A DNA stretch of 64,000 nt from Larkinella soli (GTDB lineage Bacteria > Bacteroidota > Bacteroidia > Cytophagales > Spirosomataceae), in contig NZ_QTJY01000010.1 in NCBI RefSeq assembly GCF_003703975.1, positions 62,001 through 126,000 on the forward strand, written 5' to 3'. Below are positions 14,917 to 57,998 of the stretch, piece after piece. How positions within the stretch are numbered: the stretch's first letter is position 1; each line of letters opens with the position of its first letter. The notes under the pieces are model-generated. The model did not search any database, was not told where the DNA came from, and worked only from the letters and a program-made list of their open reading frames with translations. A program made the translations under genes and the position numbers.

Positions 14917-15630
14917 ATGTTTAATCATCCGACTCTAAAAGCTCTGACGACCTGGATGGTGGCCCTGCTGCCGCTGCTTGCGTCTACGTCCTGTGCCCAG
15001 TCATCCAAACAAACATCAGCCTCACAAGCAAAATCCAAAAGTATGAATACCAACAACACCGCATTGCCCGCAGGTCTTGAAAAAGCTACTTTCGGTACCG
15101 GCTGCTTCTGGTGTACGGAAGCCATGTTCGAATCCCTGGACGGCGTCGTCAGTGCCGTTTCAGGGTATGAGGGCGGTACGAAGGCCAATCCGACGTACAA
15201 GGAAGTCTGCACCGGAAACACCGGCCACGCGGAGTGCGTTGAGGTCACCTATGACCCGAAAAAGGTAACGTATGCCGAATTGCTGGAAGCCTTTTTCCGC
15301 AGCCACGACCCGACCTCGCTCAACCGGCAGGGGGCCGACGTCGGCACGCAATACCGCTCGGTGATTTTCTATCACAACGACGAGCAGAAACAACTGGCCG
15401 AAAAGGCGAAGAAGGAACTGAACGCTTCGGGCGCCTATGACAAACCGATCGTAACGGAGGTCAGCGCAGCCGACACCTTCTACGTGGCCGAAGACTACCA
15501 CCAGGAGTATTATGCCAACAACCCCGACCAGGGTTACTGCGCCTTCGTAATCGCACCGAAACTGGACAAGTTCAAAAAGGTATTCAAAGAGAAACTGAAG
15601 CCGCAGAGTAAAGTAGCATCAAGTCATTAA
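14917..15630 (+). CDS. msrA: Peptide-methionine (S)-S-oxide reductase, lipoprotein form
   Basis: A 237-residue protein. The start at 14917 gives a lipoprotein signal (LLPLLASTSCAQSSKQ, lipobox Cys about residue 28), so the enzyme is probably exported to the envelope. The MsrA core starts at KATFGTGCFWCTEAMFESLD with catalytic Cys63. HDPTSLNRQGADVGTQYRS and EDYHQEYYANNP are typical conserved stretches. It reduces methionine-S-sulfoxide in oxidised proteins. The last 15 codons are duplicated in divergent form at 16963-17007, beyond an AT-rich cassette, so the present 3' end appears to have been supplied by an insertion. Confidence 0.93.
   Translation: MFNHPTLKALTTWMVALLPLLASTSCAQSSKQTSASQAKSKSMNTNNTALPAGLEKATFGTGCFWCTEAMFESLDGVVSAVSGYEGGTKANPTYKEVCTGNTGHAECVEVTYDPKKVTYAELLEAFFRSHDPTSLNRQGADVGTQYRSVIFYHNDEQKQLAEKAKKELNASGAYDKPIVTEVSAADTFYVAEDYHQEYYANNPDQGYCAFVIAPKLDKFKKVFKEKLKPQSKVASSH
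15592..15607 (+). repeat. Left copy of 16-base direct repeat in msrA 3' end
   Basis: AAACTGAAGCCGCAGA occurs here inside msrA and again identically at 16969-16984. It is the longest identical core of the duplicated msrA tail. It is a candidate recombination (attL/attR-like) site bounding the 1.38 kb cassette; no recombinase gene lies inside. Confidence 0.6.
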
Positions 15631-15640
15631 GGCTTCGAAC

Positions 15641-15680
15641 AAAATGAAAAAAGGCCCCGATCGGGGCCTTTTTTCATTTT
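15641..15680 (+). terminator. Terminator after msrA (first copy)
   Basis: A perfect 20-base palindrome, AAAATGAAAAAAGGCCCCGA followed at once by its complement, with a T-rich exit. It lies 10 bases past the msrA stop. A similar but non-identical terminator sits at 17022-17056 after the displaced msrA tail. Confidence 0.85.
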
Positions 15681-16217
15681 GTTACTTCTTGTATGCTGAT
15701 TATGTGGTTAGTTTGAATATCCACTGTTTATGCTTTGCCCTGTCCTATTAAGATCAAAAACAGCCGAGGCACAAATTTGATCTTCAGCGTGGTAAAAATC
15801 ACAAAAACAACACGGCTTGAAAAGCCTGTCTATTAATCACCAGCGCCTATTTATAGACTGACGAGCCTTTTCACTTAAATTCCAATAAATTACCGGTAAA
15901 AAGGAGTCGTTTTAACTCATTTTGATACACTTTAAGTTTTGTGATAATATTTTCATATTAATTAATACATTTTACATAAAGTGACAATAATTAAAGGCGC
16001 CAGCATTAATCTTATCCTGATTACTATTTAGAAGGATAATAACATAGGCACTTTGTAAAGACCTAAAATATTACAATTTCTGAAGAAATCTTCCATACAG
16101 ATAAATACTCAAAAGATTTACTACACCGAACAATAAAAAATTCACCCATTGACAAAAAGTATTTTTAAATTAATAAAACGGTTCACAACGTATTCCTAAT
16201 ATTCTTCTTCATAAAAT
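15681..16217. other. AT-rich non-coding part of the msrA cassette
   Basis: This 537-base stretch is strikingly AT-rich against the GC-rich surroundings. I found no open frame of useful size and no recognisable RNA gene. It leads into the single cassette gene at 16218, so a promoter for it is expected here; ATTGACAAAAAGTATTTTTA near 16148 is one AT-rich candidate, not a firm match. Confidence 0.5.
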
Positions 16218-16835
16218 ATGGATGTATTAAACTCTATCCCAGACTGGTTAGCTAATGCGTTTTTCGCTTTCCTGGGCTTTTTTGGAAAATTACTTTTTGA
16301 CAATTTCAAGGCACAACGGAAAAATCGCAAGGATGTCTTTGATGAAATGTACAAGCTTAAGACTCTACTGAGTGAATCAGAAAGTATATTCCACGATCAA
16401 AACTACAAAGCTAAACAGTTAATGAAGTTATTAACCAGTCGAATCCCTCAAGAAACACCTAACAGTCTTGGTTTTGATGAAACTTTCCATCGGCTTTACG
16501 AAAAGTTTACACCTGAGGAACGAGAACTATTCTCGTTAATCCGAAGCACAACCATGAATTCTTTAAAGAGGGTAAATGAAGAGATGATGGTTTGGCTAAA
16601 GAAAAACGAAATATATAAATTGAATAATCTCTCCGACTCGAAATGGGCCATATTGGAAGCGCAACTAAATCTACTAAGAACTCATCTTAACCAGTGGCAC
16701 GACAAATTTAACGCCTTTATGAATGATGAGAGACGTTGTTTAGTTTATATGGCCGACGAAAAAAGGCAGGGTATTCGTTTCCCCCAGGAACTCGAACCAG
16801 CACTTGACCAAATATTGGCTCATCAAAAGCATTAA
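16218..16835 (+). CDS. Membrane-anchored helical protein of unknown function
   Basis: A 205-residue protein I do not recognise. A hydrophobic segment near the N-terminus (about residues 8-27, WLANAFFAFLGFFGKLLF) is followed by a basic stretch (KAQRKNRKD). This fits one membrane anchor with the remaining helical, charged part in the cytoplasm. Base composition is much more AT-rich than in neighbouring genes, and codons such as ATA and TTA are common, suggesting horizontal acquisition. It is the only gene between the two copies of the msrA tail. A small membrane-tethered effector of a defence or competition cassette is possible, but nothing in the sequence proves it. Confidence 0.7.
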   Translation: MDVLNSIPDWLANAFFAFLGFFGKLLFDNFKAQRKNRKDVFDEMYKLKTLLSESESIFHDQNYKAKQLMKLLTSRIPQETPNSLGFDETFHRLYEKFTPEERELFSLIRSTTMNSLKRVNEEMMVWLKKNEIYKLNNLSDSKWAILEAQLNLLRTHLNQWHDKFNAFMNDERRCLVYMADEKRQGIRFPQELEPALDQILAHQKH

Positions 16836-16962
16836 GCCAACTTGAATGTTAATAATATAGTAATGAGATATGAATCAGTAAAAATCTAAGAGTTATTATT
16901 GTATAATGAACGTACATTAATCTTTTTGTTGTTAAAAACATAGAACATTGTTTTAATCACTT

Positions 16963-17007
16963 AAGGAAAAACTGAAGCCGCAGATCAAGGCGGTTTCCAG
17001 TCACTAA
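16963..17007 (+). pseudogene. Displaced 3' tail of msrA
   Basis: Fifteen codons, KEKLKPQIKAVSSH plus TAA, align to the last fifteen codons of msrA (KEKLKPQSKVASSH). Several changes are synonymous (AAA/AAG, GAG/GAA, CAT/CAC), so the two are divergent homologues rather than a recent copy. This is the pattern left when an element carrying its own version of a gene's 3' end integrates at that end and pushes the old tail downstream. It contains the right copy (16969-16984) of the 16-base identical repeat. Confidence 0.75.
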
Positions 17008-17021
17008 TCTTCCGAAAACCC

Positions 17022-17056
17022 AACGAAAAAGGCCCCGGACCGGGGCCTTTTTCGTT
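17022..17056. terminator. Terminator after the displaced msrA tail
   Basis: Perfect 17-base arms (AACGAAAAAGGCCCCGG, one base, complement) with a T-run. It matches the position and style of the msrA terminator at 15641-15680 relative to its TAA, which supports homology of the whole flank. It can also serve the convergent DinB-fold gene. Confidence 0.85.
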
Positions 17057-23977: not shown

Positions 23978-24424
23978 TCAGTTCAGGATCATGAAGGCAT
24001 TGTCGCAATCCCGTGAGAAGATGACACCGGGGTACATCCAGACGTTGTTGACCGAACCGTTCTTATAGCCGACCGCCCGCAGCAGGTGTTTCCCTTCCAG
24101 GTGCGTCACCCGGACAAACCGGCTCTGGGGGTTGGCCGACTCGCAGGTCGGGCCGGCCGCATACGGCCAGACGGCTTTCAGCGTCCCCGCCCGCACCGGG
24201 CTGTCGTCGACAAAGATCAGGATGCTGTCCTGATAATTCATCCAGCGCGTATAGACGTGAACCGATCCGAACTTCAGGTTTATTTTCCGGAAGCCGGCCT
24301 GACCTTCGGCGGTAGCCATTCGGGCCGGCGAGTGAGTTTGGGGTGCGACGGCCTCCGATCCCCGGGGCGATTCGCAGGCGCATACCGCCCCCAGCAGGGC
24401 GACGGCAACGGCAAGTTTTTTCAT
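23978..24424 (-). CDS. Small lipoprotein, tandem family member 4
   Basis: A 148-residue lipoprotein; the start at 24424 gives MKKLAVAVALLGAVCACESP with its lipobox Cys. The mature part shares an order of motifs with the three upstream genes: LKFGSVHVYTRWMNYQDSIL, FVDD, GTLKAVWPYAAGPTCES, VTHLEGKH, GYKNGS and the terminal DCDNAF. Two conserved Cys (after PT and before DN) could form a disulfide. No known family was recognised. The gap to the preceding paralogue is 34 bases, so all four genes look co-transcribed. Confidence 0.75.
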   Translation of the reverse strand: MKKLAVAVALLGAVCACESPRGSEAVAPQTHSPARMATAEGQAGFRKINLKFGSVHVYTRWMNYQDSILIFVDDSPVRAGTLKAVWPYAAGPTCESANPQSRFVRVTHLEGKHLLRAVGYKNGSVNNVWMYPGVIFSRDCDNAFMILN

Positions 24425-24458
24425 GGTGTGGAAAGAATGTTCAGGGGTGATTATTGCT

Positions 24459-24929
24459 TTATGGCTGCACCGGCAGCTGGAACAGCCGGAAGGTGTTGTT
24501 GCAGTCTTTATTGAAATTGATGTCGTAATAAAACCAGGCGGCATTGTGATACCCGTTTTTGTAACCGTAAATCTTCAGGGTATGCCGTCCGGCCAGGTGC
24601 GTGATTTTTGCGGCCTTTTCCGCCAGGTTGGTCTGGCAGGTCGGCTTGACGTGGAACGGCCAGACGGCCTTCAGCGTACCGGACGGTTTCGTGTTGTCGT
24701 CGACGTAAATCACTAGGCTGTCTTCATAGCTCATGTTAAACGTATAGACGACGACCGACCCGAGATTCAGGGGCGGGTGGTCGGTGCTGATCCCGGCGCT
24801 GCCTGCCGGGCCACCGGCGGCCACCCGGGCGGCCTGGCGGCTGCCGGGCGCGACGGTTTCCCTGTCGTTCGGTGATTCGCAGGCGATGAGGGCCCCGAGC
24901 AGGCCCAGGGCAAATAGCATTGTTTTCAT
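24459..24929 (-). CDS. Small lipoprotein, tandem family member 3
   Basis: A 156-residue lipoprotein with signal MKTMLFALGLLGALIACESP. The mature region has LNLGSVVVYTFNMSYEDSLV, YVDDNTKPSGTLKAVWPFHV, PTCQT, ITHLAGRHTLKIYGYKNG, WFYYDINF and KDCNNTF. It is the closest paralogue of the gene at 23978-24424 (shared GTLKAVWP and GYKNG). It is probably a periplasmic or surface beta-sandwich-like domain; function unknown. Spacing to the upstream paralogue is 36 bases. Confidence 0.75.
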   Translation of the reverse strand: MKTMLFALGLLGALIACESPNDRETVAPGSRQAARVAAGGPAGSAGISTDHPPLNLGSVVVYTFNMSYEDSLVIYVDDNTKPSGTLKAVWPFHVKPTCQTNLAEKAAKITHLAGRHTLKIYGYKNGYHNAAWFYYDINFNKDCNNTFRLFQLPVQP

Positions 24930-24965
24930 GGTGTGGAACGTGTTTGGAGATGGATAAGCAGACGA

Positions 24966-25439
24966 TCAGATGACCTTGAGGGACTTGCAGTTGTCGTTGA
25001 ATTCGACGTCATAATAGGCCCACGCGCCCTGCACGACTCCATTATGGTATTTTCTGACGGTCAGGGTGTGCTTACCTTCCAGATGCGTGATTTTGACCGC
25101 GGTATTCGGAATGACGGTTTCGCAGGTAGGATAAAGGGAAGAACCCCAGTCCCATTTCAGCGTAGCCGCGGATTTCTCGCTGCCGTCTATATAGACTTTA
25201 AGGCTGTCTCCGTAATAAATATATTTGGAATAGACGATCACGGACCCCAGGTCGATGTTCAGTTTACGGGCGTTGAGGCTGATGGTTTCCTCCCGGCTTC
25301 CGGAAGGATTGGGAGTCGGGGCCGGGGCAGCCACCCGGGCGGAAGAGTGATGTTCGGGAAGGACATTTTCGGCGTCCCGCCGGCTGTCGCAGGCAAAGGC
25401 CGACCAGAGCAGACCGGCTGCCAGAGCAATCTTTTTCAT
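24966..25439 (-). CDS. Small lipoprotein, tandem family member 2
   Basis: A 157-residue lipoprotein with signal MKKIALAAGLLWSAFACDS. The mature part shows LNIDLGSVIVYSKYIYYGDS, YIDGSEKSAATLKWDWGSSL, YPTCETV, ITHLEGKHTLTVRKYHNG, WAYYDVEF and the terminal DNCKSLKVI. Both conserved Cys positions are retained, although the spacing at the end differs slightly. Function unknown. It is the second gene of the set. Confidence 0.75.
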   Translation of the reverse strand: MKKIALAAGLLWSAFACDSRRDAENVLPEHHSSARVAAPAPTPNPSGSREETISLNARKLNIDLGSVIVYSKYIYYGDSLKVYIDGSEKSAATLKWDWGSSLYPTCETVIPNTAVKITHLEGKHTLTVRKYHNGVVQGAWAYYDVEFNDNCKSLKVI

Positions 25440-55181: not shown

Positions 55182-55499
55182 ATGATTCAGTTCACTGTAG
55201 AAGACTTCAACGGCGAGCGACAGACCCTCGAAATCCCGGAAGGCATCAGCCTCAGCCTGATGGAGGTTCTGAAAGGCTCCGACTATAACATCCTGGCTAC
55301 GTGCGGGGGCATGGCCCTCTGCGCCACCTGCCATGTGCAGGTGCTGGAAGGCGGAGACGCGCTGCCCGACCTCAACGACGCGGAAGGCGCCATGCTCGAC
55401 ACCCTCCCCGACGCCGGATCGGACAGCCGCCTGGCCTGTCAGCTCCGGGTCGACGAAACCCTCCAGGGGGCGGTTTTCCGGCTGCGCGGAGCGGAGTAA
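55182..55499 (+). CDS. 2Fe-2S ferredoxin
   Basis: A 105-residue ferredoxin starting at the ATG at 55182. The cluster loop LATCGGMALCATCHVQVLEG gives three Cys ligands and LACQLRV the fourth, the adrenodoxin-like spacing. DLNDAEGAMLDTLPDAGSDS is the acidic interaction region typical of ferredoxins working with a reductase. It is translationally adjacent to the FNR gene, so the two form an electron-transfer pair. The final acceptor is not in the window. Confidence 0.92.
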   Translation: MIQFTVEDFNGERQTLEIPEGISLSLMEVLKGSDYNILATCGGMALCATCHVQVLEGGDALPDLNDAEGAMLDTLPDAGSDSRLACQLRVDETLQGAVFRLRGAE

Positions 55500-55888
55500 A
55501 TCAACCATAGAAACGCACTACTCATGCGGATTGCACCGATCATTGGTCAGCTGGAAATGATGGTGGTAACCCGCACGATTTTCTTTCAATAAATGATACC
55601 AAAATGAGGTAGTCATAAACTTGTGATTACACTTTAAAGCAGATCGTTTACTTATTATTCAAAATTCGTACTCTAAAATAATTTTCGAGTTTTTTACTTG
55701 GAGTTAATTTTTTGTACAACTAAATTTAATCGTTTTCTTTTTCATTGCACTTAATCTAATAGATTAAAAGTTTCTCCTAAACCTCGATTAAATAGTCGCC
55801 TGCTAGGAAACAGAAAATAAATACCAACAGTTTTGCGGCCGAAACTGAAGAAAAATTAGTTCATGTTTCACTTTTTTTTCAAACGGTT
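55500..55888. other. AT-rich spacer after ferredoxin
   Basis: This 389-base AT-rich stretch follows the ferredoxin gene and begins the AT-rich block that extends to 57.58 kb. A 22-codon frame (MRIAPIIGQLEMMVVTRTIF, FQ) near 55524 is too short to call. No RNA gene or clear promoter was identified. Confidence 0.4.
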
Positions 55889-56749
55889 ATGGAGAATCTA
55901 AGCACAAAAGTGTTGCCGGTATTTTTTTGTCTTATTTTATTTGGTTGTTCATACAATAAAAATGATCCTGAGCCGATCAGTAAACCAGGTCGAGCCAGAG
56001 AAGCATGGGAAAGCAGAGATTTCAGCATGTACGTAGAGGGTGGTGACGGGACAGCCAATAACCCGTTCATATTATCCGAACTCCAGGTAATTTATTCGGG
56101 AAGCGGATTTAATTATACGGTAAGTCCTCAGGTTCTTTTTTACTCCGGCGGATACTTTAATAATACTTTTTTCCCGGAAGGGTATTACAGGCGGAGAATA
56201 ACTACTGGAGGTTCTGCCGTTGGTATGGAAGCTTATTTCAACGTTTTAAGCGGTCCAGGAGAAGAACCTTTAGCTTTTTTTCAGGACCCATGTCAATTTA
56301 AAGAAGATATTTGGCGAAGGAGTACGAGTAAGATACCAAGTGAATATTTCGGCGCAATTATAACTGATGGCACATATAGTACCCTTTCGAGAGTAGGTGT
56401 TTCCAGAGGTAAGGTGGAGGGGTTAATTGAGCACAATGGAACAAAACAGGTATACTTTTATTACCCAGCTAAAAATAAGAAGACGCCACCTTGTCAGCAT
56501 CTAAAGATAAGTTTGAGGTCAATCGAATATTATGCGATTCCCCTTAAGGCAACGGTGCATACGCATACACCCTGTCTCAAGGATGGTACCGATGGAGTCT
56601 CCCATGAGGTAGGAGATGAAGACCTCAGATTTGCAACTCTGTATCCAAATATGCAGCATTGGGTGATCGGCTGTGATGATGTAGTAGCCCAATTCAATAG
56701 CTCAAATCCTGAGTTTTTCAACAAAACAACTTGCTCATCGATGAAATAA
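55889..56749 (+). CDS. Lipoprotein of unknown function, JAB-like C-terminus possible
   Basis: A 286-residue lipoprotein with signal MENLSTKVLPVFFCLILFGC. I do not recognise a family over most of the length. Near the C-terminus ATVHTHTPCLKDGTDGVSHE, VGDEDLRFATLYPNMQHWVI, GCDDVV resembles the HxH...S...D and late G-D strand of JAMM/JAB-like metallo folds found in some secreted toxin and DUF4329-type proteins. The spacing is looser than the canonical motif, so this is tentative. Base composition is more AT-rich than in the flanking genes, suggesting acquisition. Confidence 0.65.
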   Translation: MENLSTKVLPVFFCLILFGCSYNKNDPEPISKPGRAREAWESRDFSMYVEGGDGTANNPFILSELQVIYSGSGFNYTVSPQVLFYSGGYFNNTFFPEGYYRRRITTGGSAVGMEAYFNVLSGPGEEPLAFFQDPCQFKEDIWRRSTSKIPSEYFGAIITDGTYSTLSRVGVSRGKVEGLIEHNGTKQVYFYYPAKNKKTPPCQHLKISLRSIEYYAIPLKATVHTHTPCLKDGTDGVSHEVGDEDLRFATLYPNMQHWVIGCDDVVAQFNSSNPEFFNKTTCSSMK

Positions 56750-56790
56750 AACCAACTGAGCTCTCGGGAAAACTGCTACACCTGAAGTAC

Positions 56791-56837
56791 CTGGCGGTAT
56801 TAATCATTCAAACCACTTGAATGATTAATACCGCCAG
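56791..56837. terminator. Perfect 21-base inverted repeat (hairpin)
   Basis: Arms at 56791-56811 (CTGGCGGTATTAATCATTCA plus A) and 56817-56837 are exact complements around ACCAC. It follows the lipoprotein gene by 41 bases. The hairpin is followed by A-rich rather than T-rich sequence on the plus strand, so it may act as a terminator on the opposite strand, a transcript-end stabiliser or a recombination site. Confidence 0.6.
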
Positions 56838-56877
56838 AAAAATAGCAAAGGCTCACACCTATTAACCACTTACTATA

Positions 56878-57582
56878 ATGAGACTACTAACTTATTTAAT
56901 CATTCTTTCCGGTCTACTTGCCATGCAAAGCGTACCGGTCGAACGATATCAATTCCTTGGCAATTCCGAATGCAACTCCGATTCTTCGGATGGCATAGCT
57001 GATATTAAATACATAGGCATCAAGAACACTATCCTGAAGCAGGAAATCCAGAAGTACATCAGGGAACTGGATTCCAGCTATTCTGTTTTTAAAAAAGGCT
57101 TTGGGTATATCGTAGTCCAAGATATCGAATTTAATTCCTCCACAACTTATATTGGCCGGACGTGGGAGGAAAGTAAAAAAGATACGATTGCAAAGTTTAC
57201 CCTGATTCCTGGAAGCTATTTGCTGAAACTAAAACCTGTTTTTTTCGATAGTTTCTGTGCTAACTGCTTCCCTCCCTTTTACTCCTTTATCGATGGGCGG
57301 CTGGTGTTAATCGAAGACCCGGATCTCAACTGGATCAACGATCGGAAATACACGCGCAGGAGTAAGGAAAACCTTGTAAAATTAGTAAGAAGCACCCTGA
57401 CGCTGGCCCTTCAGGAAGATTTTGAATTTTACGACGTCTTCGATAAAAAGTATTATAAACTTTCTAAAGAAAAGAGGAAAACCATGACGGAAGACCAGAT
57501 TCTGGAAGAAGCCGCTTTCGCCATCAATGAAGGAAAAACGGTCATCCTGCACGAAGACGGCTCCATCTCCTATAAACGATAA
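56878..57582 (+). CDS. Secreted protein of unknown function
   Basis: A 234-residue protein with signal MRLLTYLIILSGLLAMQSV. No family was recognised. The middle contains FIVVQDIEF-like strands and a CANC pair (SFCANCFPPFYSFIDGRLVL), and the C-terminal part is charged and helical (KLSKEKRKTMTEDQILEEAA). AT-rich like the preceding gene and separated from it by a strong hairpin. Its TAA lies inside a terminator stem (57575-57610). Confidence 0.65.
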   Translation: MRLLTYLIILSGLLAMQSVPVERYQFLGNSECNSDSSDGIADIKYIGIKNTILKQEIQKYIRELDSSYSVFKKGFGYIVVQDIEFNSSTTYIGRTWEESKKDTIAKFTLIPGSYLLKLKPVFFDSFCANCFPPFYSFIDGRLVLIEDPDLNWINDRKYTRRSKENLVKLVRSTLTLALQEDFEFYDVFDKKYYKLSKEKRKTMTEDQILEEAAFAINEGKTVILHEDGSISYKR

Positions 57583-57610
57583 GGCTCCCTTGATTGGGAG
57601 CCTTATCGTT
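57575..57610. terminator. Bidirectional terminator at the end of the unknown secreted gene
   Basis: Arms AACGATAAGGCTCCC and GGGAGCCTTATCGTT are perfect complements around a 6-base loop. The first arm includes the stop codon of the 56878 gene; the reverse direction serves the minus-strand gene at 57627. Confidence 0.75.
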
Positions 57611-57626
57611 CCGTTCTGCTTATTTG

Positions 57627-57998
57627 TCAATCCAGAATCTGCACCACCATCGGCTGTCGCTCGGCGGGGGTCGTTTCGATTTTAATCTGCTGATGAAAAC
57701 TGCCTTCCGGCGACCGGACCTCCAGGTCGTAGGCTCCGTCGGGCAGTTGGTCGAGGTCGAATTTACCGAGGTAGGCTTTTTCCTTCTTCGGCAGCAGGCG
57801 CCGGAAAATGACCTGCTTCCGTTCGTTCCGAAGGAGCACCCAGACGCGGCTTTCTTCCGTTTTTTTAACCGTTACCCAGACGCGGTTCTGGGCGGTAACG
57901 TAGGCATGGGTTTCAACCGAGCCGGATTTCAGGGCGGGCGTATCGGCCGCGGGGCTTAACAGCGCTGCACATAACAGCGCATTCAGTAACTGGAACAT
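57627..57998 (-). CDS. Small secreted Ig-like protein
   Basis: A 123-residue protein with a signal peptide (MFQLLNALLCAALLSPAADT). A single beta-sandwich-like domain follows: RVWVTVKKTEESRVWVLLRN, YLGKFDLDQLPDGAYDLEVR and SFHQQIKIETT. The pattern is close to that of secreted Bacteroidota Ig-like or T9SS C-terminal-like domains but shorter. Function unknown. Its upstream region has two tandem TGTTCG-type palindromes (58108-58143), suggesting dedicated regulation. Confidence 0.65.
   Translation of the reverse strand: MFQLLNALLCAALLSPAADTPALKSGSVETHAYVTAQNRVWVTVKKTEESRVWVLLRNERKQVIFRRLLPKKEKAYLGKFDLDQLPDGAYDLEVRSPEGSFHQQIKIETTPAERQPMVVQILD

Follow-up and report, generated by a model that had tools for sequence, protein, structure and literature searches.

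Behind the 3' end of msrA, Larkinella soli carries a small AT-rich insertion whose far side holds a second copy of the last codons of the gene. With a probability of about 0.58, we read this arrangement as the relic of an element that integrated at the msrA 3' end and kept a single gene, a candidate for phage exclusion or defence. This reading is built on comparison of sequences, first of the two gene tails and then of the cargo with its relatives. The features of the insertion, hereafter the cassette, are collected in Table 1, where positions refer to the window, that is, the whole stretch of 64,000 nucleotides that was analysed.

Table 1. Features of the msrA locus and of the cassette behind it.
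Feature	Position	Strand	Basis
msrA (peptide methionine sulfoxide reductase A), target gene, present form	14917..15630	+	PF01625, E 3.1e-69; orthologs 79-82% identical in 8/8 other genus genomes
In-gene msrA tail, last 15 codons (left att-like copy)	15586..15630	+	repeat search; GC3 0/7 after core
16-base core, left copy	15592..15607	+	exact repeat
Left terminator, 23-nt perfect arms	15638..15683	+	inverted repeat, folding
AT-rich spacer, 30% GC	15684..16217		no open frame of more than 42 aa wholly inside
Cargo gene P0001, 205 aa, predicted N-terminal membrane anchor and C-terminal domain, 37.7% GC	16218..16835	+	open reading frame, hydropathy, homologs
Predicted membrane segment of P0001, about residues 9-28	16242..16301	+	hydropathy 1.31 over 19 residues, best elsewhere 0.18
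Shared C-terminal domain, fused to TIR in four other genomes	16341..16832	+	homolog searches, alignment
Short AT-rich right spacer	16836..16962		sequence, GC profile
Probable displaced msrA tail (right att-like copy)	16963..17007	+	repeat search; host-like GC3 5/7 after core
16-base core, right copy	16969..16984	+	exact repeat
Right terminator, 17-nt perfect arms	17022..17056	+	inverted repeat, folding

The initial annotation had described the last 15 codons of msrA as occurring twice, with a 16-base core in common and a strong terminator after each copy, and both repeat search and folding bear this out. The in-gene tail, KEKLKPQSKVASSH, and the downstream tail, KEKLKPQIKAVSSH, which stands 1.38 kb further on, both end in TAA. 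Their core, AAACTGAAGCCGCAGA, is identical in the two copies and has no third site on the + strand anywhere in the window; the exact 13-mers common to the 1.5-kb flanks of the AT-rich segment are those of the core only. Homology starts within 6 nt of this exact core, at the extreme 3' end of the gene. The direct repeat covers 54 nt with 72% identity (15586-15639 and 16963-17016) and runs on over 36 nt with 81% identity (15638-15673 and 17017-17052). Nothing of msrA is duplicated beyond its final 45 nt and the terminator. Folded with some flank, the left terminator reaches -33.2 kcal/mol (z -9.2) and the right one -28.0 kcal/mol (z -4.1), and an Rfam scan gave matches below the gathering score only, all of them on the terminators. 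The start of msrA was taken as the first position given in Table 1, in a frame that is open from 14734.

To place this repeat in its genomic context, the tails of open reading frames were each compared with the next 6 kb in a scan that covered 446 kb of the 6.92-Mb genome and 1146 tails, from frames of over 120 aa, spurious ones included. The msrA score, 23, is the third highest. Of the two higher-scoring tails, one appears from letters and place to be a self-complementary repeat and the other a frame antisense to tandem paralogous lipoprotein-like genes, and we judge msrA to be the sole genuine gene-tail duplication among the tails scanned. The antisense frame has the second-best score; the three small lipoprotein-like genes beneath it, tandem and apparently paralogous, lie on the minus strand at 23978-25439 of the window.

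The DNA between the tails is of another composition. The segment 15684-16962 (1279 bases) has 33.2% GC against 57.8% in the window, and the drop is limited to the DNA between the two repeats. Its content is as first described, an AT-rich spacer and one gene for a 205-residue protein. Across 500 shuffles of the segment the longest stop-to-stop frame was 148, against the 205 aa observed, and between 15631 and 17010 no stop-to-stop frame other than that of the cargo gene exceeds 66 aa. Comparison of the spacer upstream of this gene with the regions upstream of four homologous genes returned chance-length matches only. The neighbours of the cassette are PPK2, msrA, a DinB-family gene and a pyridoxal-dependent decarboxylase. 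Elsewhere in the window, another AT-rich stretch (55889-57582; GC 0.41 over about 55400-57650) contains two open reading frames of 286 and 234 aa, the first of which begins lipoprotein-like.

The way in which the two tails differ informs on their history. Their 11 differences are distributed 0/3/8 over codon positions 1/2/3 (P=0.009 against one third each). The copies had been said to differ at synonymous positions, and third positions do dominate. This codon-position bias indicates that both copies diverged while in use as the coding tails of a working msrA, which counts against a duplication in place with one copy drifting. A partial duplication of the msrA tail and terminator in situ, followed by drift and unrelated to the AT-rich gene, would admittedly be the simplest single mutation, and the two copies are clearly of common ancestry. 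A useless copy should nevertheless drift alike at all codon positions, contrary to the pattern observed, and DNA of foreign composition exactly between the copies would be left unexplained. We regard such an origin as very unlikely.

Composition further suggests which of the tails is the newcomer. After the core, GC3 is 0/7 in the in-gene tail and 5/7 in the downstream tail, compared with 131/181 in the msrA body. On the likeliest reading, the AT-rich DNA probably brought the in-gene tail and its terminator along, displacing those of the host. As mild counter-evidence, the in-gene tail comes nearer than the downstream copy to some genus relatives in its residues K-V-x-S-S-H, and the same holds for the CCCCGATCGGGG stem of its terminator, which is shared with G002 and G007. 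Owing to these native-like traits, the polarity of the tails is probable, not proven. Taken together, codon-position bias and GC3 asymmetry provide a simple means to separate tails supplied by an element from drifted duplicates.

The locus was next compared with that of related genomes. The gene was found in 194 other genomes of the family, and msrA ends were read in 43 relatives (29 with up to 1.5 kb downstream; 39 of 40 with about 8 kb, 14 of those new), L163 being left out as it has no readable tail. The initial annotation had pointed to relatives carrying both tails without the cassette as evidence to the contrary; no recognisable second msrA tail was detected downstream in any of the 43. 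The tail-repeat score of 23 in this genome compares with a shuffled maximum of 13. Among the candidates rejected, L159 (17 v 14) and L160 (14 v 12) scored above their shuffles and on inspection were not tails, and L008 stood 1 point above its shuffle (12 v 11), a longer stretch of the same genome giving 12 v 12. The same comparison had been proposed as a source of empty sites and of different cargo between the same repeats; neither was found in the relatives compared, nor was a second cassette. When 222 family genomes were searched for copies of the cassette, all that matched were palindromes resembling terminators, msrA itself and short chance stretches.

Behind msrA, each of the 8 genus relatives has a terminator, recognised by eye; the genes beyond it vary from one part of the genus to another. 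As the downstream gene order is not conserved in the relatives, an exact empty site is not available. The DinB-family gene on the far side of the cassette adjoins another gene, not msrA, in 6/6 relatives with a close ortholog, so that the locus has also been rearranged, and this rearrangement could share the blame. A response-regulator gene lies within 1.5 kb behind msrA in 7/8 genus relatives (L005-L012); it directly follows msrA in G004, and the other relatives have one of several different genes between.

These comparisons bear on two further origins of the repeat. The cassette could be what remains of a tandem msrA duplication, if foreign DNA entered between the copies and a later deletion spared only the last 15 codons and the terminator of the second msrA. 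The coding-type divergence of the tails and the presence of both terminators would be accounted for, and 8 genus relatives do carry additional msrA-like genes elsewhere, 47-53% identical. However, these genes have drifted much further apart than the two tails, the genome of the window has a single msrA match, and 0/43 relatives have the second tail downstream. With three events required and a deletion that must end by chance near the exact core, we find this course of events unlikely. Alternatively, homology-facilitated illegitimate recombination could have brought in the msrA of a relative together with the AT-rich gene, with entry by homologous exchange and, on the right, a join at a break that happened to fall in the resident msrA tail. 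A foreign in-gene tail and terminator and a native downstream tail would be predicted here too, and the genes found behind msrA do vary across the genus. Nothing would fix the position of the right join, though, and yet the homology begins next to the exact core at the gene end; moreover, none of the other 221 family genomes gave a match to P0001. This second route also appears improbable to us.

Site-specific integration is the origin that we favour. The attachment site of the element would have been a variant of the msrA 3' end, and recombination with the host msrA would have taken place inside the 16-base core. The msrA body would thereby have been kept, with the tail and terminator of the element gained and those of the host pushed to the far side; taken as one, these two steps seem likely to us. 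The element may since have lost its integrase and other genes, as a CIME-like or a prophage or satellite relic, or it may have been moved in trans. Integration at a gene's 3' end, as initially proposed, agrees with the tail duplication, with divergence of the coding type and with a shift in composition that goes the way expected; against it, neither an empty site nor an integrase tied to the site was found among the relatives and tyrosine recombinases examined. No recombinase was found in the cassette, with its one gene, where the initial annotation had likewise seen no integrase, and the genome's 7 PF00589 tyrosine recombinase genes are all on other contigs, none in or beside it. Since no recombinase was found inside and no empty site was seen, mobility of the element is inferred.

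Searches for the attachment site outside the locus were also undertaken. In the 16-20 kb around five tyrosine recombinase genes read as not Xer-like, the core has no match with 0-1 mismatch, and the best one, with 2 mismatches, is near the C6 gene. In viral contigs, the core was found in 19 stretches, none of which reads as an msrA tail, and no MsrA was found in these contigs. In the literature, msrA is named as an integration site in no title or abstract opening among the matches listed, which is weak evidence of absence. On another aspect, G000 has two pairs of very similar tyrosine recombinase genes, C16 (L192) with C34 (L191) and C19 (L193) with C28 (L194). The former pair also has a similar downstream gene in common, and these are apparently two copies of one integrative element.

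Going further, one may imagine a minimal mobile cassette, composed of a replacement tail, a terminator and one immunity gene, that moves between msrA 3' ends by means of a recombinase acting in trans. Its cargo would be the founder of a family of single-gene phage defences. A common sensing domain would be combined interchangeably with an anchor that damages the membrane or with a TIR NADase, and phages would themselves carry such proteins to keep rivals out. We hold this extended version to be quite unlikely. The minimal mobile elements of Neisseria, which are without a duplicated gene tail, were for that reason set aside as a model.

The cargo protein P0001 is predicted to be anchored in the membrane by a segment that aligns with the matching region of two phage proteins. 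It has no match above cut-off in Pfam (best E 0.04), which detects no TIR domain in it, or in NCBIfam (0.082), and its best matches in PHROGs (E 0.015 over 41 residues) and among PDB sequences (E 0.33) are weak. A profile of the domain likewise gave weak matches only (PDB 0.83, PHROGs 0.068), and 0 PADLOC families match P0001 or P0004. Above the Pfam cut-off, nothing was found in P0001, P0004, P0006 and P0007, and only TIR in P0005. To judge by these searches, the cargo family is undescribed in any library used.

At the order level (390 genomes), two convincing relatives were found besides the genome's own protein, in G719 (36% identity, E 8.7e-22) and in G817 (34% identity, E 1.6e-8); G906 and G698 (about 7e-4) were discounted. 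The N terminus of the G719 protein is membrane-type by eye. The G817 protein starts with a TIR domain (TIR_2, PF13676, E 2.2e-27), followed by the P0001-type C-terminal domain. Within the genus of G817, the domain occurs in 4/65 genomes, always behind TIR, the three further fused proteins having Pfam TIR_2 matches of E 1.2e-23 to 2.8e-26. In that of G719 it was convincing in 1/68 genomes, G719 itself, and G935 and G917 (about 8e-4) were discounted. A profile search at the class level gave 1/395 genomes, the window's own only. The class-level matches to P0001 (31 genomes besides its own, E <=0.1, best 1.7e-4) were treated as noise, nine having been judged by eye; the three best, G427, G503 and G335, were set aside solely as short stretches in frames of 727-2914 aa. 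Two GTDB matches to P0001 were discounted as well.

Plasmid and phage records yielded nothing for P0001, P0004, P0006 or the G817 domain, apart from 64 discounted Synechococcus phage records (32% match over 39%, E about 3). For the TIR protein P0005, 17 plasmid records matched with at most 61% covered and none past residue 184, thus on the TIR side only, and its PADLOC matches are confined to the TIR region (best E 3.6e-5). In viral contigs, the single P0001 sequence found no match and a profile was needed: built from P0001 and the G719 and G817 proteins, it matches 4 contigs. Three of these encode the homolog at full length, two of the proteins being identical, and its N terminus is similar; in the fourth, the end of the contig truncates it. 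Of 10 proteins sampled around it from three contigs, 7 match PHROGs families, among them an ATP-dependent DNA ligase, an HNH or endonuclease VII and a DNA methyltransferase, with a weak virion structural match; the contigs were on this ground taken as phage. A search of the 205-residue protein had been suggested at the outset; it uncovered bacterial and phage relatives and no library family.

Across five aligned sequences, residues L51, L68, R109, T112, N114, N120, L150, L153, H156, L157, W160, K163, Y177, G185, F188 and P189 are invariant. Comparison of the homologs showed that this predicted C-terminal domain carries either a membrane anchor, in P0001, one other bacterium and phages, or a TIR domain. 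In a domain tree of 9 rows, one branch with a support of 100/100 splits the membrane-anchored from the TIR-fused rows, and G719 forms a long branch. As all TIR rows come from one genus, the TIR fusion may be a single event. No gene-tail repeat was found around the G719 and G817 homologs and one phage homolog, the phage flanks sharing one simple-sequence 13-mer. In 3/4 genomes a DnaJ-domain gene is the divergent neighbour of the TIR-fused homolog (L203 10946-11476, L220 2527-3060, L221 278-724); the one scanned, in L220, has DnaJ and KTSC domains.

Some anti-phage effectors likewise combine a common domain with either a membrane anchor or a TIR domain, hence the reading of the cargo in terms of defence or phage exclusion. 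P0001 would then be an anti-phage or superinfection-exclusion effector whose C-terminal domain senses infection and whose N-terminal part acts, by membrane damage or, in the TIR version, by NAD+ depletion; by analogy, we give this proposal roughly even odds. The benefit of defence would be the reason why the cargo gene was retained while other genes of the element went. The initial hunch of a defence or competition factor gains some support from the phage and TIR-fused relatives. P0001 might instead be a phage protein for host takeover, or a helper, with no role in defence and captured by chance, which we consider somewhat unlikely. The family is encoded on 4 phage contigs, P0001 and P0004 have no match in the defence library, and by eye no known defence genes were recognised beside the G719 and G817 homologs. 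The TIR fusion of the same domain in 4 bacterial genomes nevertheless fits an immune effector better, and the genes immediately beside the phage homolog point opposite to it, with a same-direction frame one gene further in two contigs. Phage accessory genes are commonly oriented opposite to their neighbours.

If read correctly, the insertion shows how little may remain of an element that rebuilds the end of a housekeeping gene. On the side of the cargo, one undescribed domain is the common link between a membrane-anchored protein of phages, a relic on the chromosome and bacterial proteins fused to TIR. The cargo is a concrete and easily tested candidate for a new single-gene family of phage exclusion or defence.

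Among known systems, the cassette resembles a CIME or a prophage relic. For IMEs, the consulted portion of PMC5704250 gives the 3' ends of housekeeping genes as standard targets, one repeat restoring the gene; msrA is absent from that portion of its target table. The same source describes CIMEs and decayed IMEs or ICEs as bounded, like the cassette, by a pair of att-like repeats and as having no integration or transfer genes; the target gene has its 3' end rebuilt by one of the repeats. The cassette has direct repeats of putative att function at the end of its target gene and no integration or transfer genes either. It differs in its length of about 1.3 kb, its one gene and the absence of any trace of a parent element. 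As to an origin in an ICE or IME, the cassette has no residual element genes, and the relatives of its cargo occur in phages. Grounded or cryptic prophages, in the part of PMC6379469 consulted, are att-bounded remnants that have lost phage genes and possibly kept an immunity gene. The cassette is alike, with a cargo family found in phages, but has no phage structural or replication gene.

The cargo family itself recalls Pycsar, where a receptor is joined to a membrane or TIR effector part in PycTM and PycTIR (PMC11224242, consulted in part). Unlike these, the cargo has no cyclic-nucleotide-binding domain and no cyclase gene beside it, and the shared domain is C-terminal, with no Pfam family above cut-off. 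It also recalls SpbK of ICEBs1, a single TIR gene on a mobile element that combines TIR with a small helical sensing domain (PMC12847820, likewise consulted in part). The domain order of SpbK is, however, reversed with respect to the TIR homologs, a sequence link was not seen, and P0001 has a membrane anchor and no TIR. As an integration pattern, the cassette belongs to a known kind, of which it is a small and stripped-down case; what makes it unusual is its size, its use of msrA and the family of its cargo.
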